Source: Candidatus Bacteroides intestinavium (lineage in GTDB: Bacteria > Bacteroidota > Bacteroidia > Bacteroidales > Bacteroidaceae). From it: a DNA stretch of 61,588 bases. The DNA is taken from positions 1 to 61,588 of the forward strand of contig DWZE01000136.1 in the NCBI GenBank assembly GCA_019118325.1. Reading direction: 5' to 3'. Positions 30,534 to 61,420 of this stretch are shown piece by piece. How positions within the stretch are numbered: the stretch's first letter is position 1; every line of letters starts with the position of its first letter. The notes beneath the pieces were generated by a model. It was given only the letters and a program-made list of their open reading frames with translations. It was not told the origin of the DNA and did no database searches. A program made the translations under genes and the position numbers.

Positions 30534-30562
30534 TTCAGCCGTTTCTTACGGTCTTAGAATGG

Positions 30563-30595: not shown

Positions 30596-30640
30596 CGTTT
30601 TCTCTTTTATGGATAGTGGGAAGATTGTCCCAGGAAAAGT

Positions 30641-30802: not shown

Positions 30803-30823
30803 GGTAAATACCAACTTAGGGAT

Positions 30824-31487: not shown

Positions 31488-31517
31488 AGAATAACTGTAG
31501 ACAAAGGCGTTCTCCGT

Positions 31518-31570: not shown

Positions 31571-31606
31571 AAAACACTCCGTTTGATATGGGATAAAGCG
31601 GAGCGA

Positions 31607-44037: not shown

Positions 44038-45756
44038 TCATGGACGGGCATATATCAGCGGCCGTCCGGCGAAACGGGGTGCTGCGAATGGCTTTGTACC
44101 ACCATCCGCAGCTTTTGTCTGTGTGCCGACAGGTTGCGGCAGGTGAGCCTGGTCAAAGGCAACAAACTCCTCGTAGTCATAGTTCCAGTTGTCTCCGTAG
44201 GCCAGCTTCATGATGCGCTTGTAGATAGCCTCTCGCGAGGGTGCGTTGAAACCGTTCTTGTTGCTGCGCATCATGCTCTCGTTGGTAGGACGGTAGGCAC
44301 CGCTCCAATACGTGCAGGCTCCTTGATAAATGCCCAGTGTCTCGCCGTAGGCATCCGCCCCTTGATAACGTTCGTCGTAGAGGAAACGGCTCCATACCAC
44401 CTCCTGCGAATTGGGTGTGAAGTCCACATTCATGGCCCAGCCCAGTTCCTCCTGCCATGTCTGATGAGTCTGAATCTCTGATTCTGGCATGGCTCCCATC
44501 TCTTGGTAGGAATATTCGTCCATCAACTTGGCGAAGCCGTGGCCTCCGGCCTCGTGACACAGCACACGGCGGAACATATCGTCCTCCAATCCATAAATCA
44601 TGGGGCAATAGCATACGGCAAATTCCATAACCTGGCCGGCATTGTTAAAACCAAACCAGCAAGTACCGGCATAAACCGTAGAGTTCAGAACGACGATGCA
44701 CAGAGCCTCTTCGAACAAGTCCGGGTTAGCGGCCAGTTCGGGCACCAACTGCGCATACGCCATTACTTTTTCATCATCACCAGCTATGAGTGTGCTATTG
44801 GCATTTCCGTTCAGTGCATCCACCTGGCTGCTGAAGGCTGTGCTGTAACCGCTGGTGAAGGCGTTGTTGCGCGAGACGGCAGTCACCATCCACACATCGA
44901 ACAGGTCGCGCAGCGAGCGGTAAGGCTCTTCGGTGAAAAGGTTTTCCATAGCTTGCTGCATTGCCTGCTCGTAATAACCGCTGCTGATGTCCGTGTCCAG
45001 GAATCCGTCGCCCATCAGCACCAGAGGAACGCCATTGCCTTCGCTGTGCGTTTGCAGTTGGTACACTTGCTTGTCGTCCGCCATGCTCTGCGAGGTGCCT
45101 ACGCTACGGGCCGCCTGGGTGAGGGTGAAAGTGTTCGAGGAAACGGTTGCGCCGTTTTCATCCGTGCCTTGCAATATCAATTGTGCGCTACGTTCGTTGT
45201 CATAGGGGTTCTTAGCCACTTGCAATGTCAGCTCTCCGTTTTGCATGGTACGCGACTCCGGAGCCGTCTGTACCCAGTCTACGGAGTTACCATCGGCCGT
45301 GAGCAGCGTAAACGGACCGGTCAGGTTGGTCTGGTAGTCCAGCGTGAATGCGCCCCCTGCCGCAGGAACGGGATAAACATCCTGCCCGGTCGTTATTACC
45401 GGCATGACCGATTGGGTGAATTTCACTGTCAAGGTCAGTTCACCGGCCTTAATGGTCAGTACACCCTGGCGGTTATTGCCTGTATCGTTTTTCGTTGAGG
45501 CCAGCAGATTGAGAGTAGCGGCTCCTGCCGTGCCTCTCTGCGGAGAAGGTACCGCCCAGCTGACATTAGTACTTGCTTGCCAATCGCTTGTCGAAGTAAA
45601 AGACACGGCAAGCATAGCATTGCGGTCTGCTCCTAGCACGAACTCTGCATCCGGATTGGCCAATTCTAACGAGGGTTGCGGTCCCTCATCGTTCGAGCAA
45701 CCTGTCCATAACACAAGGTTCAGGACTGCCCATAATGATAAAAGGATTTTCTTCAT
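44038..45756 (-). CDS. Surface lipoprotein with BACON domains and M64-type peptidase domain
   Basis: The 572-residue protein has a lipoprotein signal (Cys20 in VLWTGC) followed by acidic SNDEG, and two BACON-type beta domains (about 30-118 and 118-216, with SWAVPSPQRGTAGAATLNL and VDWVQTAP), usually carbohydrate- or mucin-binding. An M64-type metallopeptidase domain follows. Its motif reads HEAGGHGFAKLMDEY: His401, Glu402, His406, so three residues rather than two separate Glu and the second His, unlike HEFGH in the peptidase at 4412-5689. It is separated from the upstream SusC-SusD-lipoprotein operon by a hairpin but could be functionally linked in using host glycoproteins. Confidence 0.82.
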   Translation of the reverse strand: MKKILLSLWAVLNLVLWTGCSNDEGPQPSLELANPDAEFVLGADRNAMLAVSFTSTSDWQASTNVSWAVPSPQRGTAGAATLNLLASTKNDTGNNRQGVLTIKAGELTLTVKFTQSVMPVITTGQDVYPVPAAGGAFTLDYQTNLTGPFTLLTADGNSVDWVQTAPESRTMQNGELTLQVAKNPYDNERSAQLILQGTDENGATVSSNTFTLTQAARSVGTSQSMADDKQVYQLQTHSEGNGVPLVLMGDGFLDTDISSGYYEQAMQQAMENLFTEEPYRSLRDLFDVWMVTAVSRNNAFTSGYSTAFSSQVDALNGNANSTLIAGDDEKVMAYAQLVPELAANPDLFEEALCIVVLNSTVYAGTCWFGFNNAGQVMEFAVCYCPMIYGLEDDMFRRVLCHEAGGHGFAKLMDEYSYQEMGAMPESEIQTHQTWQEELGWAMNVDFTPNSQEVVWSRFLYDERYQGADAYGETLGIYQGACTYWSGAYRPTNESMMRSNKNGFNAPSREAIYKRIMKLAYGDNWNYDYEEFVAFDQAHLPQPVGTQTKAADGGTKPFAAPRFAGRPLIYARP

Positions 45757-45955: not shown

Positions 45956-46852
45956 TTACTGCTTGGTCATTACCACATTGCCATAGACTGAATAGAAGCC
46001 CATATATTGGCCGCTGTCATCGTCATAAACGCCTACGCCCAACAAACCGCCCTCATCAAATGTGATGGAATTGAAGTCTTCGCTCCACGTACCGACTAGT
46101 TCTGTTGCTTCGTTGGCATCTGAGGTCATCGGGATAATAGCTACACTGCCAATGAATGAACCAAAGTTCAATCCCGTAGCGAAGAAGTCACCTTGTACCA
46201 CAGTCAGCTGCTGGCTGCTTTCATTGTATTCAATAATCCACGGCTCATTGGTGGTGACACTGTTGTCAAAGCCAACAGCCACATAACGCTTGTGCTCATT
46301 GGCTTCTTGTTCTTCCAGTGTGGAGCCACCGGTCAGCGTCACTGTAAACGATACATTCCCTCCGTTGTAAGCATCTACGGCTGAGAGCGTATAGGTTCCC
46401 ATCAGTTTATAATAAGGATCTTTGTCTACATCGGCAATCGTCATCTGACAAGTGGAGTTCGTGCCGACCGAAGCACCCTCCACACTGTTGATGGTGATAG
46501 TCAGCGTCCGGTCATCGTTTTCCGTCATGTCGTCATCTATCAGGCGGATTTCACAACCATAGCCCGTGTTGTCATCTGCCGGAATGAGGATGGTGTTAGT
46601 TGTGACGATATAGTGTTCATTTTCCACTGCCGTGCCAGCTTGTACGGAGAAGTTAACACGGATAGCTCCGTTTTGCTCGCCTTCCACGACGAAAGGAACC
46701 GTAATGAGGCCAGCATTTTCATTATAAGTCACTTGCGCATTTTCAAAGCCTACGGTAGCACTGGTATTGTTCATAGCCACCTCTTCGTCATCCGAACAGG
46801 CCGCAAATGCCAAGGCTGCCAAGGCCATTGCATAATATTTCAGTTGTTTCAT
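45956..46852 (-). CDS. Calx-beta-like surface lipoprotein of the left Sus operon
   Basis: The 298-residue protein has a lipoprotein signal (Cys19 in LAFAAC) followed by SDDEE, the acidic surface-export pattern. Residues about 33-140 resemble a Calx-beta domain (VTYNENAGLITVPFVVEG, TLTITINSVEGASVG). The remaining domain (about 150-298) is unassigned and may bind glycan. It is the third gene after susC and susD, the position of surface glycan-binding proteins in Sus-type loci. The right Sus operon ends with a comparable lipoprotein. Confidence 0.78.
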   Translation of the reverse strand: MKQLKYYAMALAALAFAACSDDEEVAMNNTSATVGFENAQVTYNENAGLITVPFVVEGEQNGAIRVNFSVQAGTAVENEHYIVTTNTILIPADDNTGYGCEIRLIDDDMTENDDRTLTITINSVEGASVGTNSTCQMTIADVDKDPYYKLMGTYTLSAVDAYNGGNVSFTVTLTGGSTLEEQEANEHKRYVAVGFDNSVTTNEPWIIEYNESSQQLTVVQGDFFATGLNFGSFIGSVAIIPMTSDANEATELVGTWSEDFNSITFDEGGLLGVGVYDDDSGQYMGFYSVYGNVVMTKQ

Positions 46853-46876: not shown

Positions 46877-48424
46877 TTAATAACCGGGATTCTGCTGCCC
46901 GCGCAGTTGCGGGTTCACGTCCATCTCAGCCTGCGGAATGGGCCAAGTGAAGCGGTAATCGTCGGCACTGACTGTCAGTGAGGTTCCATTAGAAAGTCCG
47001 ACACCAAAAGTCAGGTCATCGTTCTGTGCATTGTTACCACGATCAACGCCCAAGCCCCAACGTTTCAGGTCGGCCAGGCGGAAACCTTCACCAATCAGTT
47101 CTTTGTTACGCTCTTCGCGGATGGCGGAACGCAGGGACTCGGTGCTGCTTGAAGACAAACCCGCATAGCCAGCAATACGGTTGCTGCACAGCGTGTTCAA
47201 GTAGTTGGTTGCTTCGGTAGTGTTGCCGGATTCCAAGTAAGCCTCAGCGGCAATCAGGTACTGCTCGGCAATGCGGAAGGGCTTGGACATGTTAATATAG
47301 TGGTCGTCCGTGCTGAGCCCCATCGTGGGATTGCCGGGATATTTGTCGAACTTGTAAATCGCGCCCGATGCACCGGTACTGGCCTCGTAGGTGAAGGGCA
47401 TGAAGAAAGCAGCGAAACGGATGTCGTTCTCCTGGTCGTACATGTCAATCACCGTCTGCGAGGGATAGTAAGACGGTCTTTGCGGAGTCGTGCCATATTG
47501 GCCATGGAAATAAAGACCTGTGGGATTGCCCAGTTCGTTAGGGTTGCTCATATAGATTTGCCAGATGGTCTCGGCGCCGTTGTCTTCCTCCCAGATTCCG
47601 CGGTAGGTGGCCGCATCGCTGACCAGCGCGTACTCACCACTGTTAATCAAAGCCGTAGAGGCACTGATGGCCGTGTTATAGTCCTTCATCTGGAGAGCCA
47701 CACGGGCTTGCAGGGCAGTGATGGCGTCCGGTGTGATGTAATACAAGGCGTTGGTTGCGTTTGAGTTGAGTGCATAGAGTCCTTGCAACAGACGGGAAGC
47801 TTCAGACAAGTCGCTGTTAATCTGCGCATAGGTGTCAGCCAACGATGAACGTCCAGGATAGGTGGATGCATCCGACGAGGGTGAATATGTCAACTGCAAC
47901 GGCAGACCCATTTCACTGGAAGCCGTTGAAGCGTCATAGGGATGACAGAACAGGACGGCCAGGTTGTAATAGCAGAAGGCGCGCGTGAAATAAGCTTCAG
48001 CTGCATACGAACCAATTTCCGTCATATTTTCTTCCGTGAAGCCTGTCACCGTGCCGTCCACTACCCGCTGGTAGCCGTCGATGTAATAGTTACAACGGGC
48101 AATTGTGCTGTAATAACCACTCCACATCGACTCTATGTCGCCATTGCCTGTCTGGATATCCCAACGGTAGAAATAGCCGAAATAGTTGCCATAATCCACT
48201 GTGGCGTAGAAATTGTCCGCCTGCATCTCCGTGTTAAGGATATAGCCACCGGTTGTGAGGCCGCGATAATTGGAATAAATGCCATAGCGTGCCGCCTGGA
48301 AGTCACCCAATTGGGTCATGTACTGGCTTTCTTCCACGGAATTATAGGGATATTTCTCCATGTCGCACGAAGCAAGGCCTGCCGTGGCCAAGAAAGCCGC
48401 AAGAAGTATATGTATCTTTTTCAT
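46877..48424 (-). CDS. SusD/RagB-family nutrient-binding lipoprotein (left operon)
   Basis: The 515-residue protein has a lipoprotein signal with Cys20 (GLASCDMEKYP). The N-terminal TPR-like helices include YFTRAFCYYNLAVLFCHPYD, the hallmark SusD segment. The C-terminal segment ELIGEGFRLADLKRWGLGV matches the family end. SusD proteins form the lid on SusC and capture glycans or peptides at the surface. It lies 27 bp after susC and is co-transcribed with it from the invertible promoter. Confidence 0.93.
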   Translation of the reverse strand: MKKIHILLAAFLATAGLASCDMEKYPYNSVEESQYMTQLGDFQAARYGIYSNYRGLTTGGYILNTEMQADNFYATVDYGNYFGYFYRWDIQTGNGDIESMWSGYYSTIARCNYYIDGYQRVVDGTVTGFTEENMTEIGSYAAEAYFTRAFCYYNLAVLFCHPYDASTASSEMGLPLQLTYSPSSDASTYPGRSSLADTYAQINSDLSEASRLLQGLYALNSNATNALYYITPDAITALQARVALQMKDYNTAISASTALINSGEYALVSDAATYRGIWEEDNGAETIWQIYMSNPNELGNPTGLYFHGQYGTTPQRPSYYPSQTVIDMYDQENDIRFAAFFMPFTYEASTGASGAIYKFDKYPGNPTMGLSTDDHYINMSKPFRIAEQYLIAAEAYLESGNTTEATNYLNTLCSNRIAGYAGLSSSSTESLRSAIREERNKELIGEGFRLADLKRWGLGVDRGNNAQNDDLTFGVGLSNGTSLTVSADDYRFTWPIPQAEMDVNPQLRGQQNPGY

Positions 48425-48451: not shown

Positions 48452-51445
48452 TTAGAATTTCAGTTCCAAGCCGAAGGTGAATTGTTTCGTGTTCGGATAG
48501 TTACCCAGCTGTACGTTGGTGTCCACCTCGGGGTCGTAGCCCTGATATTTGGTCACCGTCCACAGGTTACGTCCTACGAAGAATACGCGGCAACCTTCCA
48601 TAAAGCCAGTCTTCTGCATCCAGCGTTTCGGCAGGTCGTAACTGATGGTCAGGTTCTTCAGACGCATGAATGAAGCATTCTCCAGCAAGTGCGTGTCAAA
48701 CTGTCTTTCGGACTCAGGAGAGGATATATCTGTCACGTCACCCGGGTTTTTCCACATGTTCAGCATAGCGGTGCTCTGATTTTGAGTAGAAGCGAATGTA
48801 GGATTCTCCGTAAAGAAGCGTTCGTTGTTCATCATATACTGTCCCAACATGAACGAGAAGTCCGCGCTGACCGTGATGCCCTTCCAACGGATGGTAGAAC
48901 CGAAACCGCCGGACCACGGGGCAAAACGCTGTTTGCCGGTGAAGACGGCATCGTCATCGCTGTAGTTCTTGGTCAGGTTGCCGTTTTTGTCATACCACAT
49001 ATCCAGACCATCGCGTGGGTCTACACCGGCCCAGCGGGTATAGAAGAACTCACCGTAAGGCTTGCCTACCTGCAACTTCAGGCCAGTTCCCGTAATGATA
49101 TATTCGTCCAGGCCATTGAACAGTTCGATGATTTCGTTCTTGTTATAGTTGACATTGGCATTCACGCTCCAGTCTATGCCGTGGAAGTTCTTGAAGATGT
49201 CCACGCCGGCTGTGATGTCCATACCACGGTTGCGCATGCTACCCACATTGCCCCAGCCGGAACCGAAACCTGTTGTATAGGAATAAGGAATATCCATCAG
49301 CATGTCTTCCGTTACACGGTTATAGAACTCCACATCCAACGTCAGACGGTCGAACAAGCGCATGTTCACACCTACATTGGTAGACTTCACCGTCTCCCAC
49401 GTCAGGTCGGGATTGGCCGCATTGGACACAGCCGTACCCGTTCCTTCATAATACCGGTTGCCTGTACCTACACGACCGAATGCCTGATAAGCCTCAATAC
49501 CTGCCGAGTTACCCACCGAACCGTAGCTGACTTTCAGCTGCAAGTCGTTCAGCCAGTCTACATCGGAGAGGAAATACTCCTTTTTCAAGTCCCACATGGC
49601 GCCCACAGACCAGAAGTTACCCCACTGGTTGTTGAGGCCAAACAATGACGAACCGTCGCGACGGAAAGAAGCGTCGAAGAAGTACTTATCAGCATAGTCA
49701 TAGCTGAATGTTGCAAAATAGGAGTTATATACTGTTTCTGACTTACTGTGCGAAGGAACCTCCAGGCCATTGCTCGGGGCTGCGCTGAGCAGCATCAGAC
49801 GTTCGTCATCCAGGTGGTTGACCGTAACGCCGAATGCTTGATTCTTGTTCATGATAGCTTCCTGACCCACCAATACCGTAAAGTCGTGGTCATCCCAAGC
49901 TGTGAATTTATATTCAGCCGTGTTGGTGAACGTGAATTGATAGAAACGCTGGAAACTTTCTACAGCCGTACCGTCATTGACAAACGGATTCTCACCATCA
50001 TCCGTAGGATATGCCTTTTGACTGGTACGGAAGTCATAGGCCTCCATAGCCTGTGCGGCACGAATGTTCAAGCCCTTGATGGGATTGAGGTTGAAATACG
50101 TACTGGCATTGAGGTGAACCAAATCACGAATGCCGGGCTGCAATTCCGACAAATAATAAGGATTATAGAAGCCCATGGTAGAGAATTGGTTCAGGCGGTC
50201 GCCATAGCCAATGAAGTTTCCGTTGTCGTCTGTCAGAATCTCATAGTATTCCTGGTCGGGACGATATGTGCGGGCGGCATAGGCCTTGTTGTACACACTG
50301 TTACCCGTCGTTCCGAAAGCTGTTGTAGAGTAACGTTGGTAGGTGAGGCTCAGATTCACACCAGCCTTCAACCATTTCGTAATATTTGCATCTACATTAG
50401 AACGCAACGTCTCGCGGCGCATGCTGGAGTCATCCATGATACCCTCCATATCATAGTGGCCGAAAGAGAGGTAATAGTTTACCATGTCCGAGCCGCCCGT
50501 CACGCTCACGTCATACTGCTGCACGGGTTTCGTGTCTCCGAAGAACACATCGGTCCAATCGGTAGAGATTCCATTATTAATATAGAAAGCCTTACGTTGT
50601 TGGAAAGCAGCATCGTTTACCAATGACGGGGTAAGCACCTCCTGGAAGTTCAAGTATTGCTCAGTGTTCATCATCGTCACCCGGTCGCCGGTCATCTTTG
50701 ACAGACCGTATTGAGCCGTCACCGTGACATGAGCTTTTTCGCCACGCTTACCTTTCTTGGTAGTAATGATGACCACACCGTTGGCGGCACGCGCACCATA
50801 GATGGCTGTGGATGAAGCGTCCTTCAGCACAGTCATGTTCTCAATGTCGTTCGGGTTCAACGAAGTGAAAACATTGCTGGATACCGGTGCTCCGTCCAAA
50901 ATGAACAAAGGAGCCGTAGTACCATTGATAGAACTGACACCGCGCAGACGGATATTGACGCTGGCACTCGGTTCTCCTGAAGGTGTAAATACTTGCAAAC
51001 CAGCTACCTGTCCTTGTAAGGCATCGCCTGCATTGGCCACCGGCTTGTTTTCCAGTTTCTGTCCCTCTACAGCCGTCACCGATCCGACCACCGACCCCAG
51101 TTTCTTGGCCGTACCGTAACCCACGATAACCACTTCATCCAACAGTTCATCATTCGCCTTCATACGGATAGTCATATTCGGCTGAATTTCAAGCTCTTCC
51201 GTCTTCATACCCACGAAGGAAACTACGAGGGTTCCCGCGGAACTTGGTACGTTCGGCAGAGTGAACTTACCATCTACGTCAGTAATTGTACCTTGTTGGG
51301 TACCTTTTACTTGTACTGACGCTCCGATCACCGGCTGCCCGTCTTCATCAGAAATCACAACACCTGTGACCCTCTGAGTTTGGGCAGTCACCAAGCCTAT
51401 CCCGACGAAGAGACAGGCCAATAACAGCATTAATTTTCTTTTCAT
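48452..51445 (-). CDS. SusC/RagA TonB-dependent transporter, complete (left, expressed form)
   Basis: The 997-residue protein has a signal peptide (1-22, ending VTAQ), a carboxypeptidase-regulatory-like domain (about 24-90, GVVISDEDGQPVIGASVQVK), a plug domain (NIRLRGVSSINGTTAPLFIL, AIYGARAANGVVIITTKKG) and a 22-strand-type barrel ending in FTFGLELKF with a terminal aromatic. It should import an oligosaccharide or peptide with its SusD, powered by TonB-ExbBD. Residues 66-79 are encoded by a 40-bp sequence repeated in inverse orientation in the right susC (53564-53603). Everything upstream of it, including the promoter, lies in a putative invertible segment. Confidence 0.94.
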   Translation of the reverse strand: MKRKLMLLLACLFVGIGLVTAQTQRVTGVVISDEDGQPVIGASVQVKGTQQGTITDVDGKFTLPNVPSSAGTLVVSFVGMKTEELEIQPNMTIRMKANDELLDEVVIVGYGTAKKLGSVVGSVTAVEGQKLENKPVANAGDALQGQVAGLQVFTPSGEPSASVNIRLRGVSSINGTTAPLFILDGAPVSSNVFTSLNPNDIENMTVLKDASSTAIYGARAANGVVIITTKKGKRGEKAHVTVTAQYGLSKMTGDRVTMMNTEQYLNFQEVLTPSLVNDAAFQQRKAFYINNGISTDWTDVFFGDTKPVQQYDVSVTGGSDMVNYYLSFGHYDMEGIMDDSSMRRETLRSNVDANITKWLKAGVNLSLTYQRYSTTAFGTTGNSVYNKAYAARTYRPDQEYYEILTDDNGNFIGYGDRLNQFSTMGFYNPYYLSELQPGIRDLVHLNASTYFNLNPIKGLNIRAAQAMEAYDFRTSQKAYPTDDGENPFVNDGTAVESFQRFYQFTFTNTAEYKFTAWDDHDFTVLVGQEAIMNKNQAFGVTVNHLDDERLMLLSAAPSNGLEVPSHSKSETVYNSYFATFSYDYADKYFFDASFRRDGSSLFGLNNQWGNFWSVGAMWDLKKEYFLSDVDWLNDLQLKVSYGSVGNSAGIEAYQAFGRVGTGNRYYEGTGTAVSNAANPDLTWETVKSTNVGVNMRLFDRLTLDVEFYNRVTEDMLMDIPYSYTTGFGSGWGNVGSMRNRGMDITAGVDIFKNFHGIDWSVNANVNYNKNEIIELFNGLDEYIITGTGLKLQVGKPYGEFFYTRWAGVDPRDGLDMWYDKNGNLTKNYSDDDAVFTGKQRFAPWSGGFGSTIRWKGITVSADFSFMLGQYMMNNERFFTENPTFASTQNQSTAMLNMWKNPGDVTDISSPESERQFDTHLLENASFMRLKNLTISYDLPKRWMQKTGFMEGCRVFFVGRNLWTVTKYQGYDPEVDTNVQLGNYPNTKQFTFGLELKF
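51210..51249 (-). repeat. Inverted repeat of the Sus switch, left copy
   Basis: Read in the coding direction it is TACCAAGTTCCGCGGGAACC (51249-51230), one variable base (C, 51229), then TCGTAGTTTCCTTCGTGGG (51228-51210). The right copy differs only at the central base (A). The core GTTCC-GCG-GGAAC is a short dyad, as expected of tyrosine-recombinase crossover sites. Codons are in the same frame in both genes. Confidence 0.92.
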
Positions 51446-51897
51446 AAATTCTCTCTTAAAGTTTAACTTTACATTAATTGATTCTTTACTCTAACAGGAT
51501 GCAAATATATTAATAAATATGAAAGCTACAATTGATTCTTTGAAAAAACCTTGTATTTCTATCAAATTGTTATTCTAATGACCGTATTTATGCTGAATAG
51601 CACATATTTTATTCCCGAAACCACCCTTGACGTTGTAATAAGATTGCAATATGTGCGGTATAAATGATTCTCTCGTTTTAAGAAATGCACGTTTTTTAAA
51701 ACAAAATGGTTAAAAAACGCCCTAAAATTCCTTCATTCCTGCCTCATCGAAAGGGAAGATGCCCCGAAATGCGTGCAGGATATGCCTCCTAAATGCCCTT
51801 TTATCTCGTCTTTTGTAATTAAAGTAACGCTTATGATTGGCTTTTTGAACGGCTTGGCTTCTCTTGGCTTGACAAAGTGGATCCCAAATAAGAAAAG
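51446..51897. other. 452-bp regulatory spacer inside the invertible segment
   Basis: No gene is seen. It contains the susC promoter (51502-51531), CACATATT/AATATGTG arms (51601-51608, 51648-51655) and the perfect dyad CGTTTTTTAA/TTAAAAAACG (51690-51699, 51710-51719). No clear promoter for the recombinase was found; its RBS is weak (AAGAAAAG), suggesting low expression. Confidence 0.5.
51502..51531 (-). promoter_or_regulatory. Invertible promoter of susC
   Basis: On the minus strand TTG (51531-51529), 19 nt, TATATTTG (51509-51502). The susC ATG follows about 55 nt later. It lies within the segment bounded by the 40-bp inverted repeats. Confidence 0.7.
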
Positions 51898-53058
51898 ATG
51901 GATAAAATAGTTTACAAACTGGTGTACAACCGTAAAAGAACCCTCAACCGTAGAGGAATGGCCTTGGTGCAAGTGGAGGCTTATCAAGGCGGACAGAAAA
52001 GGTACTTCTCCACACACGTTTACCTACAGCCCGAACAATGGGACACCCGGCGCAGGCGGGTGCGGAACCATCCGAATGCCGACGGGCTGAATCGGCGTCT
52101 TTATGGCCTTATGGCTGACTTGGAGCGGCGCGAGCTGCAATTGTGGCAACAGGGGAAAGCCGTTTCCCCGGATTTACTCAAAGAGACTGGCAAGGACGTG
52201 GCCGACAAGCTGTCCTTCACGGACTTCATGAAGCAGGAGGTGGAGCAGGCCGCAGTGAAGGAGAGTACCCGGCGAAATCTGCTGTCCACACTGAATCTGC
52301 TGCACGCTTTCCGGTCGCAAATACAATTTGCCGACCTGACTTATGAGTTCATGGCCGATTTTGAGTTTTTCCTGCGACAGAAAGGCTACCACACCAATAC
52401 CATCGCCAAGCACCTGAAGCATCTGAAGCAGCAGGCGAATGCGGCCATCCGCAAGCATGGACCGATGATGTACGAACGTTCCTGTCTGGATTTCAAGATA
52501 AAGACGAGTGATTGCAAACATACGCACCTGATGCCCGATGAACTGGCGAAACTTGAACAACTGCAACTGTCCGAAAGGCATCGCGGTCTGCAAAAGACCC
52601 TGGACGCTTTCTTGTTCTGCTGTTATGCCGGCCTGCGCTATTCCGATTTCACCTCCCTGCAGCCTGAGAACATCGTAAACATCGAGGCAGAACGCTGGCT
52701 GATGTATCGTTCGGTAAAGACGCAAGTCGAAGTGCGCCTGCCGCTCTATCTGCTCTTCAACGGCAAGGGGCTGGCTTTGCTGGATAAGTATGCCGGATGT
52801 TTGGAGGACTTCTTCCAATTGAAGAACAATTCGAATGTCAACAAGCAACTTCGACGCCTGGGGCAAATGGCCGGACTGGAAAAGCACATCTCTTTCCACA
52901 CGGCCCGTCATACCAACGCCACCTTATTAATATATAAAGGTGTCAACATCACGACCGTCCAAAAACTATTGGGGCATAAGAATGTGCGGACCACCCAAAT
53001 CTATGCGATGGTGATGGACCGTACCCTTGTGCACGACCTGGAGTTACATAGAGACTGA
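51898..53058 (+). CDS. Tyrosine recombinase, probable inversion enzyme of the Sus switch
   Basis: The 386-residue site-specific recombinase has an Arm-type N-terminal domain (about 5-90), a SAM-like core-binding domain (about 105-200) and a catalytic domain. All catalytic residues are visible: Arg247 (AGLRYSDF), Lys274 (YRSVKTQ), His334 and Arg337 (HTARHT), His360 (LLGHKNVRTT) and Tyr369 (QIYA). No excisionase, relaxase, transfer or phage genes are near, so an ICE integrase is unlikely. The position inside a segment bounded by 40-bp inverted repeats indicates a DNA invertase acting on the two susC genes. Confidence 0.9.
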   Translation: MDKIVYKLVYNRKRTLNRRGMALVQVEAYQGGQKRYFSTHVYLQPEQWDTRRRRVRNHPNADGLNRRLYGLMADLERRELQLWQQGKAVSPDLLKETGKDVADKLSFTDFMKQEVEQAAVKESTRRNLLSTLNLLHAFRSQIQFADLTYEFMADFEFFLRQKGYHTNTIAKHLKHLKQQANAAIRKHGPMMYERSCLDFKIKTSDCKHTHLMPDELAKLEQLQLSERHRGLQKTLDAFLFCCYAGLRYSDFTSLQPENIVNIEAERWLMYRSVKTQVEVRLPLYLLFNGKGLALLDKYAGCLEDFFQLKNNSNVNKQLRRLGQMAGLEKHISFHTARHTNATLLIYKGVNITTVQKLLGHKNVRTTQIYAMVMDRTLVHDLELHRD

Positions 53059-53563
53059 TTGTATAATATTTTGCTTGTCAGAAGCAGCACTGCACAGCGG
53101 CTGAAAAAACACTGAACAGAAACTTGAGAAATACTTAAGTTTTTCTGGAGTTTTTGTTCAGTGTTACTGGAGTTTTTGTTCAGTGTTTTTTTGAGCCCAG
53201 TCTGAAATTCGCAAACACCTGTTATTCAGTAGTATATATTAAGAACAATATTTACAACATAGGCCACTTGTAAAGATACGTAAAAACAAGAATGTCCGCA
53301 TATTTCAATCTCGTACAATGGCCGTCACGAGCCTGTCAAATGGTGTCCTGCATCGCGCGGGTAGAAAAAGAGCATCATAAAGAGGCTCTCCCTGAAAGTC
53401 ATAAGGTATTATAAATTAGTCTGTTGCAAGAAGAATCGGGTAGAAAATGGGTAGAAAAAGCTCCAGGATGCTTCCGGCTAATCACTTGATAGTCAACAAT
53501 AGGATGGAGCAAGGATACGTACCGGCAATTTTATAGTCTGTTGATAGTTAGGCGATTGGCAAT
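53059..53563. other. 505-bp noncoding tail of the invertible segment
   Basis: No gene is recognised. The dyad at 53104-53191 follows the recombinase stop. The sequence next to the right repeat has a stop (TAG, 53545-53547) in the susC frame and no promoter, so the right susC is not translated from here. Confidence 0.55.
53104..53191. repeat. Dyad with AACACTGAACA arms (copy 2)
   Basis: AAAAAACACTGAACA (53104-53118) pairs with either TGTTCAGTGTT at 53155-53165 or TGTTCAGTGTTTTTT at 53177-53191, so alternative stems are possible. An inner AAACTT/AAGTTT pair is present. Size and arms resemble 746-831. With its T-run it can end recombinase transcripts. Confidence 0.8.
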
Positions 53564-53603
53564 TACCAAGTTCCGCGGGAACCATCGTAGTTTCCTTCGT
53601 GGG
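53564..53603 (+). repeat. Inverted repeat of the Sus switch, right copy
   Basis: TACCAAGTTCCGCGGGAACC (53564-53583), variable base A (53584), TCGTAGTTTCCTTCGTGGG (53585-53603). It encodes PSSAGTIVVSFVG; the left susC has PSSAGTLVVSFVG. Homology between the two genes begins exactly at this repeat; upstream bases are unrelated. Confidence 0.92.
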
Positions 53604-56553
53604 CATGCATACGGAAGAGGTTGATATTCAGCCGAATATGACAATCCGCATGAAGACTAATGCGGAACTGCTGGACGAGGTGATGGTCGTGGCCTATGGT
53701 ACGGCTAAGAAGTCGGCATTTACGGGTTCGGCTGGTGTAGTCGGATCGGAGGATATCGAGAAAATCCAGAGCTCTAACGTGGTGAATGCGTTGAATGGTA
53801 AGGTGTCCGGCGTGCAGCTGAACAATTCTTCCGGCCAGCCGGGTGCCACGACGCCGACCATCCGCATCCGTGGTATCAGCTCCATCAATGCCGGCAATGA
53901 CCCGCTGATCATCCTGGACGGCGTGCCCTACGATGGCGACCTGAACAATATCAGTTCGCAGGACATTGAGTCCATGACCGTACTGAAGGATGCTGCTTCT
54001 TCGGCCCTGTACGGTGCGCGCGGTGCCAACGGCGTCATCATCATCACGACCAAGAAGGGAACTTCCGGCAAGGCCAAGATAACGGTGGATGCCAAGTGGG
54101 GCAGCAACTCACGCGCTTTGCCTAACTACGAATATGTGAACAGCCCTGCCAAGTATTATGAAATGTGGTACAGTGCCTTGAAGAACTACTTCGTGAACGC
54201 TCAGGGCTATTCGGACATGGAGGCCCACAACATGGCCAACCAGCATTTGACGACCAACGACGCATACGGTTTGGGTTATAATGTATATTCTGTGCCCGAA
54301 GGCCAATACATGATTGGCACCAACGGCAAGCTGAACCCCAACGCCACGTTGGGCAACGTCGTGAACTACAACGGACAAGACTATATGCTGTTGCCGGACG
54401 ACTGGACAGACGCTGCCTACAAGACCGGCCTGCGCCAGGAGTATTCGCTGACGGCCACCGCCGGCACGGACAAGTCCTCGTTCTTCGCTTCGTTCAACTA
54501 CCTGAGCAACGAGGGTATCTCCCCCAATTCGGATTATGAGCGTATCGCCGGCCGTCTGAAGGCCGACTACCAGCTGACCGACTGGTTGAAAATCGGCGCA
54601 AACATGGGCTACACGCACTTCGATTCCAACTCCTTGGGTGAGGATGGCTCTTCCAATTCTTCCGGAAACGTGTTCGCCCTAACGATGATGGCCCCCATCT
54701 ATCCGCTGTACTTGCGCGACGGACAGGGAAACATCATGGTAGACGGCAACGGCATTACCCGCTATGACTATGGTGACGGTTCCAACGCCGGCAACAGCCG
54801 TCCGTATCTGGGACAGAGCAACGCCTTGTCTGCCAATATCCTGGACAAGAACAGTGCGGAAGGCAACTCGATGAGTGCCGTGGGCTTTGCGGAAATCCGC
54901 TTCCTGAAGGACTTCAAGTTCAGCAGCACCAACAGTGTGTATATTGACGAGACACGTGCCACGAGCTTCACCAACCCGTATTATGGTTCGTATGCAAGTT
55001 CCAATGGTATGCTGACCAAGGCTCATTCGCGCCAACTGATGTACAACTTCCAACAGTTGTTGACGTGGAAGCGCAACTTCGGCCTGCACAATGTGGATGC
55101 CATGATCGGTCATGAATCTTACCGTTACAAATACTATTATTTGTCGGCCAACAAGAACAATATGTTCGACCCGACCAATATGGAACTGGATGGAGCCATT
55201 GTAAATGGCAGCAGCGGTTCTTATACGACAGACTACAACACGGAAGGTTACTTCGGGCGTTTACAGTATGACTTCGCCGAGAAGTACTTCGGTTCGGTAT
55301 CTTACCGCCGCGACGCTTCCAGCCGTTTCCATCCGGACAATCGCTGGGGTAACTTCTGGTCGGCCGGTGCCGCCTGGATTATTTCCAAGGAAGACTTCTT
55401 CGATGTAGAGTGGATTGACCTGTTGAAAATCAAGGCTTCCTACGGTTCGCAGGGTAATGACCGAATCGGTGACTACCGCTATGTCAACACGTTCAGCATC
55501 GTGAACTCCAACGGCAATCCTGCTGCCGTGCCCAACGTAATGGGTAACAAGGACATTACGTGGGAGACGAACGCCAACTTCAACGCCGGTGTGGAATTTG
55601 AATTGCTCGGCACCCGTCTGAACGGTAGCGTAGATTTCTTCACCCGCAAGACCAGCGACATGCTGTTCACCTTCACCCTGCCGCCTTCGTATGGCTATAC
55701 CTATTATTATGCCAACATCGGCGACATGCGCAACCTGGGTGTGGAACTGGAACTGAACGGCACGGTCATCAAGCATCGCGACCTGGAGTGGAACATCAAC
55801 CTCAACCTGACTCACTACAAGAACAAAGTGACCTACCTGGCCGACGAGCACAAGACGACTACGGTAGACGGCGTGGAAGGTTATGAGAACGGCAATATGT
55901 TCATCGGCGAGGGTATTCCTTTGTACACCTACGAACTGGTGCAGTATGCCGGCGTCAACGAGAACGGCGAATCCCTGTTCTACGTGGATGGCACGGATGA
56001 AAACGGCAACCCGACCCGTACCACGACTACCAATCCGAACAACGCCACCAAGCATCTGTGTGGTACGGCCTTGCCCGACGTCTATGGTGGTTTCGGCACG
56101 GAACTGACTTGGAAAGGCTTGGACTTCTCGGCCAACTTCAGCTACCAGCTGGGCGGCCAGGTGTATGACAGCGACTATGCTTCGTCCATGTCCGCCAACA
56201 AGGGTCATGCCTTCCATGTCGACCTGCTGAATGCCTGGTCTACGGAGAACCCGACGAGCAACATCCCGCGCCTGCAATACAACGACAGCTATACGGCTGC
56301 TTCGTCCGACCGCTGGCTGACCAGCGCTTCCTACCTCAGCCTGCAGAACATCACGCTGGGTTATACGTTGCCTTCACGCTGGTGCCAGACCCTGGGAATG
56401 GAGAAACTGCGCCTCTACGTCACGGCAGACAACGTATGGCTGTGGTCCAAGCGCCAGGGCCTTGACCCGCGCCAGAGCATCAGTGGCTCGGTGACATCCG
56501 CCTATTATGCGCCCATGCGTACCATCTCAGGAGGTATCACACTGACATTCTAA
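53599..56553 (+). CDS. SusC/RagA TonB-dependent transporter, headless silent copy (right)
   Basis: The open frame encodes a SusC plug and barrel (984 residues from the nominal GTG 53599) but has no signal peptide and only the end of the N-terminal regulatory domain. Susceptible homology to the left susC starts at 53566 (PSSAGTIVVSFVGMHTEEVD); 53545-53547 is a stop in frame. GTG 53599 encodes the Val of SFVGM and is not a real start. Plug motifs (TIRIRGISSINAGNDPLIIL, ALYGARGANGVIIITTKKG) and the C-terminal TISGGITLTF are intact, so this is an archived, functional body waiting for a head rather than a decayed gene. Inversion of 51210-53603 would restore it. Confidence 0.88.
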   Translation: MGMHTEEVDIQPNMTIRMKTNAELLDEVMVVAYGTAKKSAFTGSAGVVGSEDIEKIQSSNVVNALNGKVSGVQLNNSSGQPGATTPTIRIRGISSINAGNDPLIILDGVPYDGDLNNISSQDIESMTVLKDAASSALYGARGANGVIIITTKKGTSGKAKITVDAKWGSNSRALPNYEYVNSPAKYYEMWYSALKNYFVNAQGYSDMEAHNMANQHLTTNDAYGLGYNVYSVPEGQYMIGTNGKLNPNATLGNVVNYNGQDYMLLPDDWTDAAYKTGLRQEYSLTATAGTDKSSFFASFNYLSNEGISPNSDYERIAGRLKADYQLTDWLKIGANMGYTHFDSNSLGEDGSSNSSGNVFALTMMAPIYPLYLRDGQGNIMVDGNGITRYDYGDGSNAGNSRPYLGQSNALSANILDKNSAEGNSMSAVGFAEIRFLKDFKFSSTNSVYIDETRATSFTNPYYGSYASSNGMLTKAHSRQLMYNFQQLLTWKRNFGLHNVDAMIGHESYRYKYYYLSANKNNMFDPTNMELDGAIVNGSSGSYTTDYNTEGYFGRLQYDFAEKYFGSVSYRRDASSRFHPDNRWGNFWSAGAAWIISKEDFFDVEWIDLLKIKASYGSQGNDRIGDYRYVNTFSIVNSNGNPAAVPNVMGNKDITWETNANFNAGVEFELLGTRLNGSVDFFTRKTSDMLFTFTLPPSYGYTYYYANIGDMRNLGVELELNGTVIKHRDLEWNINLNLTHYKNKVTYLADEHKTTTVDGVEGYENGNMFIGEGIPLYTYELVQYAGVNENGESLFYVDGTDENGNPTRTTTTNPNNATKHLCGTALPDVYGGFGTELTWKGLDFSANFSYQLGGQVYDSDYASSMSANKGHAFHVDLLNAWSTENPTSNIPRLQYNDSYTAASSDRWLTSASYLSLQNITLGYTLPSRWCQTLGMEKLRLYVTADNVWLWSKRQGLDPRQSISGSVTSAYYAPMRTISGGITLTF

Positions 56554-56580: not shown

Positions 56581-58185
56581 ATGAAACATATATCGAAAAT
56601 CTTAACGGGTGCTTGCCTCTCCTCCCTGTTGTGGGTGAACACAGGCTGCATCGAAGAAACATTCCCCACCAGCGGTGCCACGCAGGACCAGCTGGGTGCT
56701 TCCGCCCAAGCCACGGAAGCCTTGATGTGGGCCATGCCGGCTTTCTTCAACAACTGGGCTACCATCAGCAGTAGCTATCACTATGACTGGGGCTACGGTT
56801 CCATCATGCACATCCGCGACGTGATGACGGAAGACATGGCCGTGGTGTACAGCAACAGTGGTTATGACTGGTATGAGTCATGGGAAACCAACAAGTATCA
56901 AGGCCAGGACTACGTATATGCCCAGTTCATCTGGAACTACTACTACCAGTTCATCCAGACGTCCAACAACTTGATTGGCGCCGTGGATGAGACTTCGGCC
57001 ACCGAACAGCAGTTGGGCTACCTGGGAGCAGCCCTTGCCTTCCGCGCCTTGGCTTACCTGGACCTGGCACAGATGATTGAGTTCCTGCCCAATGACGGCA
57101 CCAACGGAGTGAACGAAGCCGGCAACGATGTGACCAACCTGACCGTACCCATCGTCCGTGAAACCACTACACAGGATGAGGCACGCAACAATCCCCGCGT
57201 CTCCCGCGAGGAAATGGCCGCCTTCATTCTGGGCGACCTGGACAAGGCCGAGCAATACATCGTCAACCTGGAGCGCAGCAGCCGTACGTTGCCCGACCTC
57301 TCGGTGGTTTATGGTTTGAAAGCACGCTATTATATGTGGCTGGGTGAATATGCTTCTGCGCAGAACTATGCCCGCCAAGCCATCAATGCCGCAGACGTGA
57401 CACCGATGACGGAAGATCAGTGCCTGAACACAACCAGCGGCTTCAACGACCTGTCCTGCTGGATGTGGGGATCACAATTGAGAGCAGAAGATAACCAGGT
57501 GCAAACGGGTATTGTCAACTGGACTTCCTGGATGTCCAATGAGGCCACGTATGGCTATACAGCCGTAGAGCCTCATCTGATGATCAACAAACGCACCTAC
57601 GATCGCATCAGTGACACGGACTTCCGCAAGAAACTGTGGAAAGCGCCGGCCGGTTCTGCCTTGGAGGGACAGACGCCCTTCATCGATGCCTCCTGGGGAG
57701 CAAGTTTGGAAGACTATTGTAGCGTGAAGTTCCGCCCCAATGCCGGTAATACGTTAGATTATCTGGAAGGTTCGGCTTCTGCTTTCCCCGTGATGCGTGT
57801 AGAAGAGATGTATTTCATCGAGGCTGAAGCTGCCGCCCATCAGAATGCCGGCGAAGGCCGCACCTTGCTGGAGGACTTCATGCGCAACTATCGTGACCCG
57901 CAATACACCTGCACGGCCAGCGATGTGGTGGACGAAATCGTCTTCCAGAAGCGCGTGGAACTGTGGGGTGAAGGTTTGACTTTCTTCGATGTGAAGCGTC
58001 TGAACATGCCTGTTACCCGCGGCTATGACGGCACGAACTTCCACGACATGGCCCGTCTGAACACAACGACCCGTCCTGCCTGGATGAACATCTGCATCGT
58101 CCGCAATGAGAAGGCCAACAATCCGGCTCTGACCGGCTATGAGAATCCCGACCCGACGGATGTCTACACGCCGTGGACTGAATAA
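56581..58185 (+). CDS. SusD/RagB-family lipoprotein (right operon)
   Basis: The 534-residue protein has a lipoprotein signal with Cys23 (LLWVNTGCIEETFP), the SusD segment ALAFRALAYLDLAQMIEFLP (about 140-160) and the C-terminal KRVELWGEGLTFFDVKRLNM. It is the SusD partner of the headless right SusC, 27 bp upstream, with the same spacing as in the left operon. Sequence similarity to the left SusD is low, so the two systems probably bind different ligands. Expression should depend on the switch. Confidence 0.93.
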   Translation: MKHISKILTGACLSSLLWVNTGCIEETFPTSGATQDQLGASAQATEALMWAMPAFFNNWATISSSYHYDWGYGSIMHIRDVMTEDMAVVYSNSGYDWYESWETNKYQGQDYVYAQFIWNYYYQFIQTSNNLIGAVDETSATEQQLGYLGAALAFRALAYLDLAQMIEFLPNDGTNGVNEAGNDVTNLTVPIVRETTTQDEARNNPRVSREEMAAFILGDLDKAEQYIVNLERSSRTLPDLSVVYGLKARYYMWLGEYASAQNYARQAINAADVTPMTEDQCLNTTSGFNDLSCWMWGSQLRAEDNQVQTGIVNWTSWMSNEATYGYTAVEPHLMINKRTYDRISDTDFRKKLWKAPAGSALEGQTPFIDASWGASLEDYCSVKFRPNAGNTLDYLEGSASAFPVMRVEEMYFIEAEAAAHQNAGEGRTLLEDFMRNYRDPQYTCTASDVVDEIVFQKRVELWGEGLTFFDVKRLNMPVTRGYDGTNFHDMARLNTTTRPAWMNICIVRNEKANNPALTGYENPDPTDVYTPWTE

Positions 58186-58214: not shown

Positions 58215-59033
58215 ATGAAGACTATCAATAAACTCTTTGGCGCCCTGGCTTGCCTCAGTTTGATACTGGGGTTGGGTGCATGTACCGAGGAATATGAATA
58301 TACCCCGGTCGAAATGCCAAGCGGCTCTCAAGTCTATTTTTCCACAACTACCGTGGCAACCACACAAGTAGACTTGAGCAGTACCGAAAGCTCTTTCACC
58401 GTAGAAGTTTGCCGCGCAGAGACGAGCAGTGCCGCGACTGTGAATCTGAGCGTCACGGATGAATCCGGCCTGTTCACCATCCCTTCTTCTGTAAGTTTCA
58501 ATGCAGGTGAGGCTACTGCCCAGCTGACCATCGGTTATAACCCGGCAGAGCTGGTGTTTGGCACTTATTACCCCATTACCTTGACTGTAGAAGAATCCGT
58601 ATCGACTCCCTATGCTCCGGCTACCTATGCTTTCAATGCGGGTATCCCGATGACATGGACGGCTGTGGCAACAGGTGATTATGCGTATTCCCTGTTCTTT
58701 AGCGGTGCAGACCCCGGCCTGACGCTTTATCAGTGCGACCAGGATCCGAGTCTCTTCCGGATTCCCAACTGGGGCTATGGCGTGGACTTCACTTTCACGT
58801 ACGATGCTGCAGCCAATACAGTCGTAGTGGATGATTTCTTCATTGGCTATACGGATGCGACCAACGGTGATGTCTATGTGATGGATGTAGATACGTATGC
58901 CGGACAGACAGTGGCAGGTCCCGGATATTTTGAGGACAACGTATTCTACTTTAATGTCATCTACTATGTGAGTGCCGGTTACTATGGCATGGGTACCGAA
59001 ACCTTCACCCTTACTGAAGGCAGCATTAACTGA
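58215..59033 (+). CDS. Beta-domain surface lipoprotein of the right Sus operon
   Basis: The 272-residue product has a lipoprotein signal with Cys23 (LILGLGACTEEYEY). Residues about 35-140 form a Calx-beta or DUF4843-like beta domain (STESSFTVEVCRAETSSAAT, FNAGEATAQLTIGYNPAEL). The C-terminal half is Tyr/Asp/Val-rich and unassigned. It ends the right operon, matching the left operon in layout but not closely in sequence. A glycan- or peptide-binding role at the surface is inferred. Confidence 0.75.
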   Translation: MKTINKLFGALACLSLILGLGACTEEYEYTPVEMPSGSQVYFSTTTVATTQVDLSSTESSFTVEVCRAETSSAATVNLSVTDESGLFTIPSSVSFNAGEATAQLTIGYNPAELVFGTYYPITLTVEESVSTPYAPATYAFNAGIPMTWTAVATGDYAYSLFFSGADPGLTLYQCDQDPSLFRIPNWGYGVDFTFTYDAAANTVVVDDFFIGYTDATNGDVYVMDVDTYAGQTVAGPGYFEDNVFYFNVIYYVSAGYYGMGTETFTLTEGSIN

Positions 59034-59097: not shown

Positions 59098-59408
59098 TTA
59101 TGTATGCCCGTCATGAGTATGGGCTAACGGATGTCGGTTCCAAAACCTCCTACGATACCCTCCAAAGTATCCTTGGATACTTGACCATAGAAGCTTGCTT
59201 CGTGGGCACTTTATCCTATAATACTTTTGGTGTCCAGCCTATATGCACGAAATCCATTCCACACAAGGTAGAGAAGGTGTGCATATCGTCTCTACTGCAG
59301 CAATGGTATTGGCGAATAAAGTTTTTAGGGTTATACCCATAAATAATACAAGAATAATCCCTATACCCATTGGCGGAATTAATCAATCTATGACAGGCCA
59401 CGGACGGA

Positions 59409-59476
59409 GATATCTGCGGGCAAGGACGGAGATATCTGCGGACAAAAGCGGAGATATCCGCCCGCAAAGCCGCACG
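59409..59476 (-). repeat. 22-nt tandem repeat array C (3 units, inverted)
   Basis: GATATC at 59409, 59431 and 59453, exactly 22 nt apart, with words such as TGCGGGCAAGGACGGA between. Read on the minus strand, the unit is GATATCTCCGTCC followed by a TTGCCCGCA-like word, the same as arrays A and B. It therefore lies inverted relative to array B, on the other side of the Sus switch. Confidence 0.87.
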
Positions 59477-59615
59477 ATGGACCGACAGGATAAAGTGTAT
59501 ATGGGTTTCAATTCCGCCAACGGGTTCCCTATATTTACGGATGTAATCGTAGATAGAACCAACCACGATGGAAAGAACCCGTGCGACGTATAAATACGAG
59601 TTCCTACTTATATCT

Positions 59616-59647
59616 TTTGTTTTTTCAGGCGAATTGGCTTACCTTTG
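59616..59647 (+). promoter_or_regulatory. Promoter of the DUF1703 gene
   Basis: TTTG (59616-59619), 20 nt, TACCTTTG (59640-59647). It makes an upstream start at 59645 impossible and points to ATG 59672. Confidence 0.75.
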
Positions 59648-59671
59648 TATGCATATTTACACAGAGGCCCT

Positions 59672-61420
59672 ATGATGCAAGCAGCCATTACCATACCCTA
59701 TGCCATAGCCGATTACGCCATCCTGCGCGAACGTGGCTATTATTACGTGGACAAGACACGCTACATTCCGCTGCTGGAGCGGTACAGCGCACCTGTGTTC
59801 CTGCGTCCGCGCCGTTTTGGCAAGAGCCTGCTTGTGTCCACACTGGCCTATTATTACGATGTGAACGAAACGGGGCGTTTCAGCAACCTTTTTGGCGACA
59901 CCTATGTGGGAAACTACCCTACCGGCGAACAGAACCGCTACATGGTCCTGCGTTTCGACTTTTCCAAGATGGTCATTTCGGATAACCTGGCGGGATTGGA
60001 AAGGAATTTCAATGACTTGCTGTGCCCGGCCATCAAGGAATGCGTGAAAAGCCCGCAACGTTATGCCCGCTTCTTTACAGACTTTACGTTCAATGATGAG
60101 CGGAATGCCGCCAAGATGTTGTCGGAGGTAATCAATCTGGTGAACAGCAGAAAGTTGCCTCCCCTGTACATCCTTATCGACGAATATGACAACTTTACCA
60201 ACCAGTTGCTGACCGCCTTCAAGGATCCCCTGTATGAGGAGGTGACAACGGGCGAGAGTTTCCTGCGCACTTTCTTCAAGGTCATCAAGAGCGGTATTGG
60301 GGAGGGCAGCATCCGCACCTGTTTCTGTACGGGCGTGTTGCCTGTGACGATGGACGACCTGACCAGCGGTTATAACATGGCTGAAATGCTGACGCTGAAG
60401 CCGGAATTCGTGACAATGTTGGGCTTTGACCACGAGGAAGCTGCCGCTTACTTGCGCTATGTGATGCAGAAATACGACCGCCGGGACAGCTCTTTCGAGG
60501 AGATTTGGACCCTTTTGCTCAACAATTATGACGGTTATCGCTTTCTGCCCGGGGCTCCTCCCTTGTTCAACTCCACCATTCTGACTTACTTCTTCAAGAA
60601 TTTTGCCGAACTGGGCGGCGATATCCCCAACGAACTGGTGGACGAGAACCTGCGCACGGACATCGGCTGGCTGAAACGACTGACTATCACGCTGGAGAAT
60701 GCCCAAGAAATGCTGGATGCTCTGCTGATTGATGACGAACTGTTGTATTCGCAAGCCGATTTGCGCAGCAAGTTCAACAAACGGAAATTTTTTGAGAAGC
60801 AGTTCTATCCGGTCAGCCTCTACTACCTGGGGATGACTACACTGAAGAGCAACTACAAGATGTGCCTCCCCAACCTGACAATGCGCAGCATCTATGTGGA
60901 TTATTACAATGAACTGCATCAGGTGCATGACGATGCGCGGCGTTTTGCCCCGGCTTACGAGCGTTTCACGAAAGACGGGCGCTTTGAGCCGTTGGTCATG
61001 AACTATTTGGAGGAATACTTGGGACAGTTCCCGGCGCAAGTATTCGACAAGATAAACGAAAATTTCATCCGCTGTTCCTTTTATGAACTGATGAGCCGCT
61101 ACTTGAGCCAGTGCTATACGTTTGCCCTGGAGATGAACCTGCCATCAGGACGGGCGGACTTGGTGCTGACAGGCATACCCGGCACGGGATTCCACAACGA
61201 TTGCCGGGTAGTGGAATTCAAGTATTTCAAGTCCAAAGACGCCATCTCAGTATCTGGCGCCAACGCTCCGACATCTGAGGATGTGAAACAGGTGAACGGT
61301 TATGCCCGCGACATCCATGCGGCATTTCCCAACTATCGGTTGCGTACCTATGTAGTCTATCTGGCCGCCGGAAAAACGTGCAAGGTTTGGGAATGCACCG
61401 ATGGAATTTCCTGCCGGTAG
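59672..61420 (+). CDS. DUF1703 protein: AAA-ATPase-like with PD-(D/E)XK nuclease-like C-terminus
   Basis: The 582-residue protein starts MMQAAITIPYAIADYAILRE. The ATPase-like part has a P-loop variant (FLRPRRFGKSLLVSTL, about 43-58) and a Walker-B-like LYILIDEYDNF. The C-terminal part has a PD-(D/E)XK pattern (SGRADLVLTG then VVEFKYFK; Asp ... Glu-x-Lys). These multi-copy Bacteroidetes proteins have no proven role; defence or mobile-element association has been suggested from architecture. ATG 59672 follows AGAGG by about 6 nt; ATG 59675 is also possible. The gene has its own promoter and ends about 40 bp before the terminal repeat. Confidence 0.85.
   Translation: MMQAAITIPYAIADYAILRERGYYYVDKTRYIPLLERYSAPVFLRPRRFGKSLLVSTLAYYYDVNETGRFSNLFGDTYVGNYPTGEQNRYMVLRFDFSKMVISDNLAGLERNFNDLLCPAIKECVKSPQRYARFFTDFTFNDERNAAKMLSEVINLVNSRKLPPLYILIDEYDNFTNQLLTAFKDPLYEEVTTGESFLRTFFKVIKSGIGEGSIRTCFCTGVLPVTMDDLTSGYNMAEMLTLKPEFVTMLGFDHEEAAAYLRYVMQKYDRRDSSFEEIWTLLLNNYDGYRFLPGAPPLFNSTILTYFFKNFAELGGDIPNELVDENLRTDIGWLKRLTITLENAQEMLDALLIDDELLYSQADLRSKFNKRKFFEKQFYPVSLYYLGMTTLKSNYKMCLPNLTMRSIYVDYYNELHQVHDDARRFAPAYERFTKDGRFEPLVMNYLEEYLGQFPAQVFDKINENFIRCSFYELMSRYLSQCYTFALEMNLPSGRADLVLTGIPGTGFHNDCRVVEFKYFKSKDAISVSGANAPTSEDVKQVNGYARDIHAAFPNYRLRTYVVYLAAGKTCKVWECTDGISCR

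Follow-up and report, generated by a model that had tools for sequence, protein, structure and literature searches.

In gut Bacteroidales, SusC/SusD pairs are among the main nutrient importers and surface antigens, and a stretch of DNA from Candidatus Bacteroides intestinavium raises the question of how a transporter operon whose susC gene lacks a beginning might be switched on. The stretch, referred to here as the window, comprises positions 1 to 61,588 of contig DWZE01000136.1 in assembly GCA_019118325.1 (2.71 Mb, 138 contigs, 82% complete). Two susC genes, each followed by a susD gene and then a small lipoprotein-type gene, diverge around a tyrosine recombinase gene, an arrangement noted in an initial annotation of the sequence and borne out by gene and domain calls. 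The left susC is headed, with its own start codon and signal peptide; the right susC is intact but headless, its frame meeting a stop at 53545, six codons upstream of the first scored body residue, again as that annotation had read it. Judged from sequence, the locus is very probably a SusC/SusD shufflon of the Tsr0667 type, built around one expression head. There is strong support for a recombinase-carrying head that inverts to drive either susC gene, and flipping probably selects which of at least three transporter operons is on. The features on which the argument turns are listed below.

46877..48424, minus strand: left susD (SusD families)
45956..46852, minus strand: left small lipoprotein-type gene with a Calx-beta domain (domain search)
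48452..51445, minus strand: left susC, headed, ON in the deposited state (TIGR04056 match)
51210..51249, minus strand: left repeat arm, inside left susC (codons ~66-79), with the conserved core AGTTCCGCGGGAACC at 51244-51230
51250..51445, minus strand: shared head (left SusC residues 1 to ~66), comprising start codon, a signal peptide identified by eye and the front half of a CarboxypepD_reg-like domain
51502..51509, minus strand: TATATTTG, a match to the Bacteroides -7 element TAnnTTTG, starting 64 nucleotides (nt) upstream of the ATG
51898..53058, plus strand: tyrosine recombinase, Tsr0667-like, 386 amino acids (Pfam Arm-DNA-bind_5, Phage_int_SAM_5, Phage_integrase)
53059..53563, plus strand: headless leader, the non-coding end of the segment, from the recombinase to the right site
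53548..56553, plus strand: right susC, headless, plug and barrel complete, without a signal peptide (TIGR04056 match)
53564..53603, plus strand: right repeat arm, in the headless right susC at the 5' end of its body, with the core at 53569-53583
56581..58185, plus strand: right susD (SusD families)
58215..59033, plus strand: right small lipoprotein-type gene, without a Pfam match

An inverted repeat inside two susC reading frames

The 40-bp arms are identical at 39 of 40 positions and lie at equal codon phase in the two susC genes, which upholds the initial measurement. They sit within a 148-nt inverted pair that is 85% identical, a value partly reflecting susC homology. A search of the whole assembly at three or fewer mismatches returned three copies of the repeat and none of a reversed-pattern control, so the repeat is neither a chance match nor generic susC similarity. 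In a two-state invertible promoter, intergenic repeats flank the promoter alone; here the repeats are inside coding sequence, and the invertible segment itself holds coding sequence and the recombinase besides the promoter. Our own reading of the core site across the family gives the consensus AGTTCNGCGRRRACT, of which AGTTCCGCGGGAACC is the window version.

When the segment was inverted by script, the right SusC became a protein of 1,061 residues without an internal stop, and the left SusC was left with neither start codon nor signal peptide. Both outcomes had been predicted in the initial annotation, although the head contributes about 66 residues to the new protein and not 70. In the left SusC, the Pfam domain CarbopepD_reg_2 spans residues 26-107. 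As the junction falls inside this CarboxypepD_reg-like domain, the head supplies promoter, start codon and signal peptide, and the bodies supply plug and barrel.

In the mechanism that we propose, the recombinase would act at the core site inside the SusC N-terminal domain and invert the segment that contains its own gene; this segment also holds the promoter, a conserved 5' untranslated region (UTR) and the beginning of the susC coding sequence, from the start codon through the signal peptide to the middle of the CarboxypepD_reg-like domain. Each inversion would leave the head joined, with the reading frame preserved, to a single SusC body out of three or more (the left, the right and that on contig C29), and the remaining operons, deprived of promoter and start codon, would be silent. 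We infer that the window recombinase itself performs the inversion, that it is still active in the strain and that expression is limited to a single operon at any time.

A third operon on contig C29

The initial annotation held that the head serves exactly two operons. This does not hold up, since a third headless SusC-SusD operon begins at the same repeat on contig C29 and is placed to the right of the window by synteny. That repeat copy, missed at first reading, is 10 bp from the contig end and has a leader of its own, unlike the head and unlike the right leader. It is followed by a SusC body, SusD, a Calx-beta protein, a C10 peptidase with a Spi inhibitor domain and an Mfa-like protein. SusC/SusD genes are the targets at all three sites, as judged by TIGR04056 and SusD families in the window and by the Plug (SusC) and SusD_RagB domains in the third operon. 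Next to the site the C29 and left bodies are equal at 129 of 130 nt; beyond about 180 nt identity ranges from 38 to 87% per 60-nt block, and the whole bodies are 54% identical in amino acids. With this copy there are more than two recombination sites, as in a shufflon. A search for a second head elsewhere in the genome found none, its weaker matches being the repeat end on C29 and a 66-bp, 75% identical stretch on C60.

Both orientations in sister species and in B. fragilis

The locus was compared with those of three sister genomes: G064 (Candidatus Bacteroides merdigallinarum, locus L054), G033 (L055) and G015 (Candidatus B. pullicola, L056). On the left flank, 3, 6 and 6 of ten window frames (16.9-43.7 kb) were matched in G064, G033 and G015, respectively, at 89-97% amino acid identity. 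These include the nearest three frames in every sister, and some of the four to seven unmatched frames per sister lie beyond the fetched stretch. On the right flank, 2, 2 and 3 of three C29-side genes were matched at 85-92%. As the genes that adjoin the C29 operon also form the right flank in the sisters, that operon is placed right of the window and would belong to the same locus.

The segment has the window's orientation in G064. The recombinase and head are reversed in G033 and G015, so the opposite orientation that the initial annotation proposed to look for in related genomes is seen in two of three sisters at the syntenic locus. In G015 the operon that carries the head resembles the right operon, headless in the window (SusC 91.8%, SusD 90.4% and small protein 76.5% identical), and stands in the same place beside the right flank, as an inverted window is predicted to look. 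The G015 locus yielded only two bodies. In G033 the head is absent from the operon whose left-type SusC body is 81% identical, and the G064 array contains one headed and three headless bodies, one of the latter 91% identical to the C29 body. Across the four sister species, five cassette types (body clusters placed on sister contigs) occupy the locus, two to four in each species and one headed in each.

The right body, headless in the window and headed in G015, has a ratio of nonsynonymous to synonymous substitution rates (dN/dS) of 0.069 in this comparison; the values for the right susD and small protein are 0.068 and 0.119. By this measure the silent right body is under purifying selection. 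A silent pseudogene was considered for the right operon and is unlikely at a dN/dS of 0.069 for its body.

Both states of a homologous locus also occur within a single record. In the chromosome of B. fragilis Q1F2 (NZ_CP018937.1), bases 1-47,236 repeat 5,148,905-5,196,111 in direct orientation at 99.6-99.7% identity, and this end repeat of about 47 kb resembles an untrimmed circular overlap. The exception is 22,989-32,148, a 9,160-bp part that is inverted and 99.98% identical. The inverted part ends at the head/body sites of this homologous locus, and the head is therefore joined to a different body in each copy. An assembly error at repeats could have produced the inversion, but would have to be exact at both sites. 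Both orientations thus occur among homologous loci, in the sister species and in Q1F2. On a B. salyersiae scaffold the recombinase copies of L074 and L075 are nearly identical, point in opposite directions and are separated by about 10 kb, with a gap of N near a site; the pair may be an assembly trace of both states.

One head per locus across recombinase relatives

Near full-length relatives of the recombinase, 50-77% identical, are present in 20 of 36 congeners, and among the matches listed the next ones covering most of the query are at most 31% identical. The survey took in the best 80 of 143 named loci plus the window, 81 in all; among them, Q1F2 loci L065 and L067 come from one strain, and L055 and L056 are the loci already described for G033 and G015. 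A single copy of the conserved head was found in 60 of the 81 loci, divergent from the recombinase in all 60 and most often 453-454 bp from it. This count leaves out L132 and L133, which have weak head matches (64-69%) on the other strand about 5-6 kb away. Within the 60 one-head loci a headed body was scored in 55 and at least one headless body in 54, with two or three headless bodies in 19. At L062 the head is present and the only body scored belongs to another susC, which has a different head and lies 9.6 kb past the recombinase. Complete records of Phocaeicola vulgatus ATCC 8482 (L114) and B. fragilis Q1F2 show the same layout. The first reading of the layout as a new minimal design has to be given up, as 60 of 81 recombinase loci share it, with two or three headless partners in 19 of them. 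Neither the syntenic locus nor the 60 one-head loci showed intact heads on both susC genes, the result that the initial annotation had named as contrary evidence.

When bodies were clustered by single linkage at 70% or higher amino acid identity, 14 of 22 multi-locus clusters held both headed and headless members, two of the 14 being the Q1F2 pair. Eight loci without a head, L062 and bodies shorter than 350 amino acids were set aside for this clustering. P. vulgatus ATCC 8482 also has a second recombinase relative, 48% identical, about 1.2 Mb away.

The head itself is strongly conserved in the 59 of 60 copies with enough sequence to be compared. The -7 element TAnnTTTG, a consensus given in passages of PMC4747536, occurs within 150 nt upstream in 58 of the 59 heads and at -64 in 46. 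The 5' UTR and first 12 codons (window 51410-51505) are near-invariant in nucleotides, third positions included: the mean consensus is 0.90 over codons 1-12 vs 0.58-0.76 later, and 0.88 over UTR positions -60 to -1. Such invariance suggests a constraint at the RNA or DNA level, or frequent transfer of the head.

Headless sites show a different pattern. Across 71 non-redundant sites conservation begins at the AGTTC core and runs into the body, similarity to headed sites starts at this core as well, and the leaders are near background. The set omits 15 loci without a head, one site without AGT and sites near ends or with N, and keeps L074, L075, L089, L103, L108 and L131 though they have no head. 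Two motifs, picked after inspection of the leaders, recur upstream: AGTTC about 52 bp before the core in 21 of 71 leaders (-70 to -25; shuffles mean 2.8, maximum 11) and the word [CT]TGATNATNA about 27 bp before it in 11 of 71 (shuffles mean 0.3, maximum 3). They are possible arm-type sites for the recombinase. The window's own leader (53490-53563) contains neither in exact form.

Relation to known switches

The window recombinase is 58% identical over 382 amino acids to P0053, which NCBI names a 'Tsr0667 family tyrosine-type DNA invertase' and which is 83% identical to the B. fragilis Q1F2 enzyme. Its tyrosine recombinase Pfam domains and the name of P0053 point to the Tsr0667 family; a comparison with NCBIfam gave no hit to a model so named, and all nine listed models fell short of their cut-offs. 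According to passages of PMC4747536, Tsr0667 of B. fragilis drives inversions of the shufflon type at three SusC/SusD clusters and in nine further regions; these shufflons, reported by Nakayama-Imaohji et al. (2009, J Bacteriol), are covered in passages of PMC4747536 and PMC11852207. Taken with the Tsr0667-named relative, this reported shuffling files the locus under the known Tsr0667-type switches, with which it shares a recombinase of the same family (by its relative's NCBI name) and multiple inversion at SusC/SusD clusters; in contrast to those three clusters and nine regions, three sites were found here at three or fewer mismatches in an incomplete genome. From its sequence, the window is a well-supported instance of a known, widespread switch type.

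Region EE of B. fragilis is similar in having repeats at the 5' end of susC/ragA homologues and alternative pairs under one promoter, as described in passages of PMC5729914; there, however, the repeats overlap the start codon, downstream of the invertible promoter. The crossover in the window is about 66 codons into the gene, so that a signal peptide and half a domain are common to all products. Large inversions of TonB/SusD clusters such as B. intestinalis PVR3, often with a dedicated integrase gene alongside, are likewise comparable, and PVR3 was found inverted after phage exposure (passages of PMC8375218). Alternative surface proteins also arise through DNA inversion, by promoter addition or chimeric structures, in the Mycoplasma agalactiae Vpma and Ureaplasma MBA systems (parts of PMC2268961, PMC3047005 and PMC11868660), but the organisms, proteins and recombinases are unrelated and the likeness is one of analogy only. 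The literature passages on SusC/SusD inversions that we consulted hold no description of the one-head, many-body anatomy; the in-frame, one-head layout may already be in print, for example in earlier B. fragilis literature. The BT1041 region of B. thetaiotaomicron may be a further parallel.

Alternative explanations

A simpler switch would be strictly bistable, with the head common to the left and right operons only. There are indeed only two sites inside the window and only two bodies in G015, but C29 has a complete SusC-SusD operon that begins at a further exact copy of the repeat, and the G064 array holds the C29-type body among its three headless ones, which makes this version very unlikely. 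We regard it as quite unlikely that the switch is a fossil, once active and now leaving the right operon as a silent remnant in this lineage. A single state is deposited for the strain, as a fossil would require; against this, the right susC, susD and small-protein frames are intact with the dN/dS values given above, the recombinase frame is intact, and the repeat still matches at 39 of 40 positions. General homologous recombination between susC paralogues could in principle exchange heads, and would be consistent with arms that extend to 148 nt at 85% and with the near-perfect, conversion-like C29/left match that decays beyond about 180 nt. That conservation starts at the same AGTTC core across the 71 headless sites, and that every one of the 60 headed loci has the recombinase next to the head and divergently oriented, renders this explanation highly improbable. 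A misjoin at the repeat is an exceedingly improbable source of the headless right susC: while the assembly is a fragmented draft, and C29 ends just past its repeat copy, the same layout recurs in other assemblies, among them those of P. vulgatus ATCC 8482 and B. fragilis Q1F2.

Several observations weigh against the preferred reading of a Tsr0667-type shufflon with a single head. Only one orientation is deposited for the source strain, the opposite states being known from relatives, and the third operon is on a separate contig, its position taken from sister genomes. Among the 20 congeners with a recombinase relative, the G032 copy is broken by stops; G011 holds only an 83-residue piece of the enzyme. 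No head was scored in 21 of the 81 loci, some of them cut by contig ends. At L078, L079, L088, L101 and L122, 8.5-10 kb of upstream flank contain no SusC head or body at the thresholds used, and at the distant loci L100 and L119 the recombinase lies between two susC genes, each with its own, different head. The recombinase family is therefore not tied to the one-head layout alone and probably has other targets too, and the arrangement at L100 and L119 may be an older one of this enzyme family or a different one. The core site also fits imperfectly: relative to AGTYYYN4GDACT, the presumed Tsr0667 motif, the window core differs at the last base and the family consensus at one other.

Neighbouring features

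44038..45756, minus strand: M64-family peptidase with a BACON domain, after the left operon (domain search)
53104-53191: palindromic element 3' of the recombinase, one of a dispersed family with 67-78% identical stretches on 14 other contigs
59364-59525: element with a 22-bp tandem repeat (59396-59461), beyond the right operon
59645-61420: AAA-ATPase_like/PDDEXK_9 gene, between the right operon and the presumed place of the third

A gene 73% identical to the M64-family peptidase follows the left-type operon in G033. Stretches 95-98% identical to the 59364-59525 element lie beyond the C29 operon (L034 10845-11028), and a neighbouring C29 stretch (11049-11111) is an 86% match to window 26014-26082. 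The AAA-ATPase_like/PDDEXK_9 gene has a 95.6% identical relative after the array in L057; none was found in the G064, G033 and G015 stretches. No Rfam structured-RNA match reached the gathering threshold in 51100-53700, and a simple scan of 53040-53620 gave no terminator-like site.

Possible roles of the cassettes

Among solved structures, the best match by sequence is RagA for both the left and the third SusC; the right SusC matches a SusC homologue at 340 bits, slightly above RagA at 317 bits. The left operon and the third are both followed by peptidases. Given what is generally known of RagAB, these two may plausibly take up peptides. Gene families would allow uptake of peptides or other nutrients, a surface antigen or a phage receptor as the purpose of the switch. 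The phage-receptor and antigen roles are suggested by the protein family and by shifts at such loci under phage, reported in passages of PMC8375218 and PMC12548429; in the latter, deleting the shifted genes did not bear them out as direct receptors of the phage studied. Invertible regions in or near SusC/SusD genes also differ between patients with inflammatory bowel disease and controls, according to passages of PMC10939037.

A broader reading, which we offer tentatively and would not yet call probable, is that the locus is a single conserved expression site across Bacteroidaceae: a chromosomal slot, the same in the sister species, with one near-invariant promoter-UTR-head and its recombinase, through which interchangeable headless SusC-SusD cassettes, some carrying their own proteases, would be traded between species and expressed singly, with leader sites guiding the recombinase. 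Syntenic comparison offers a direct route to study transporter cassettes moving through one slot. Because the layout has a single head, the state of such a locus could be read from one junction, and orientation could thus be counted in the metagenomes of many species from one conserved 5' sequence plus the core.

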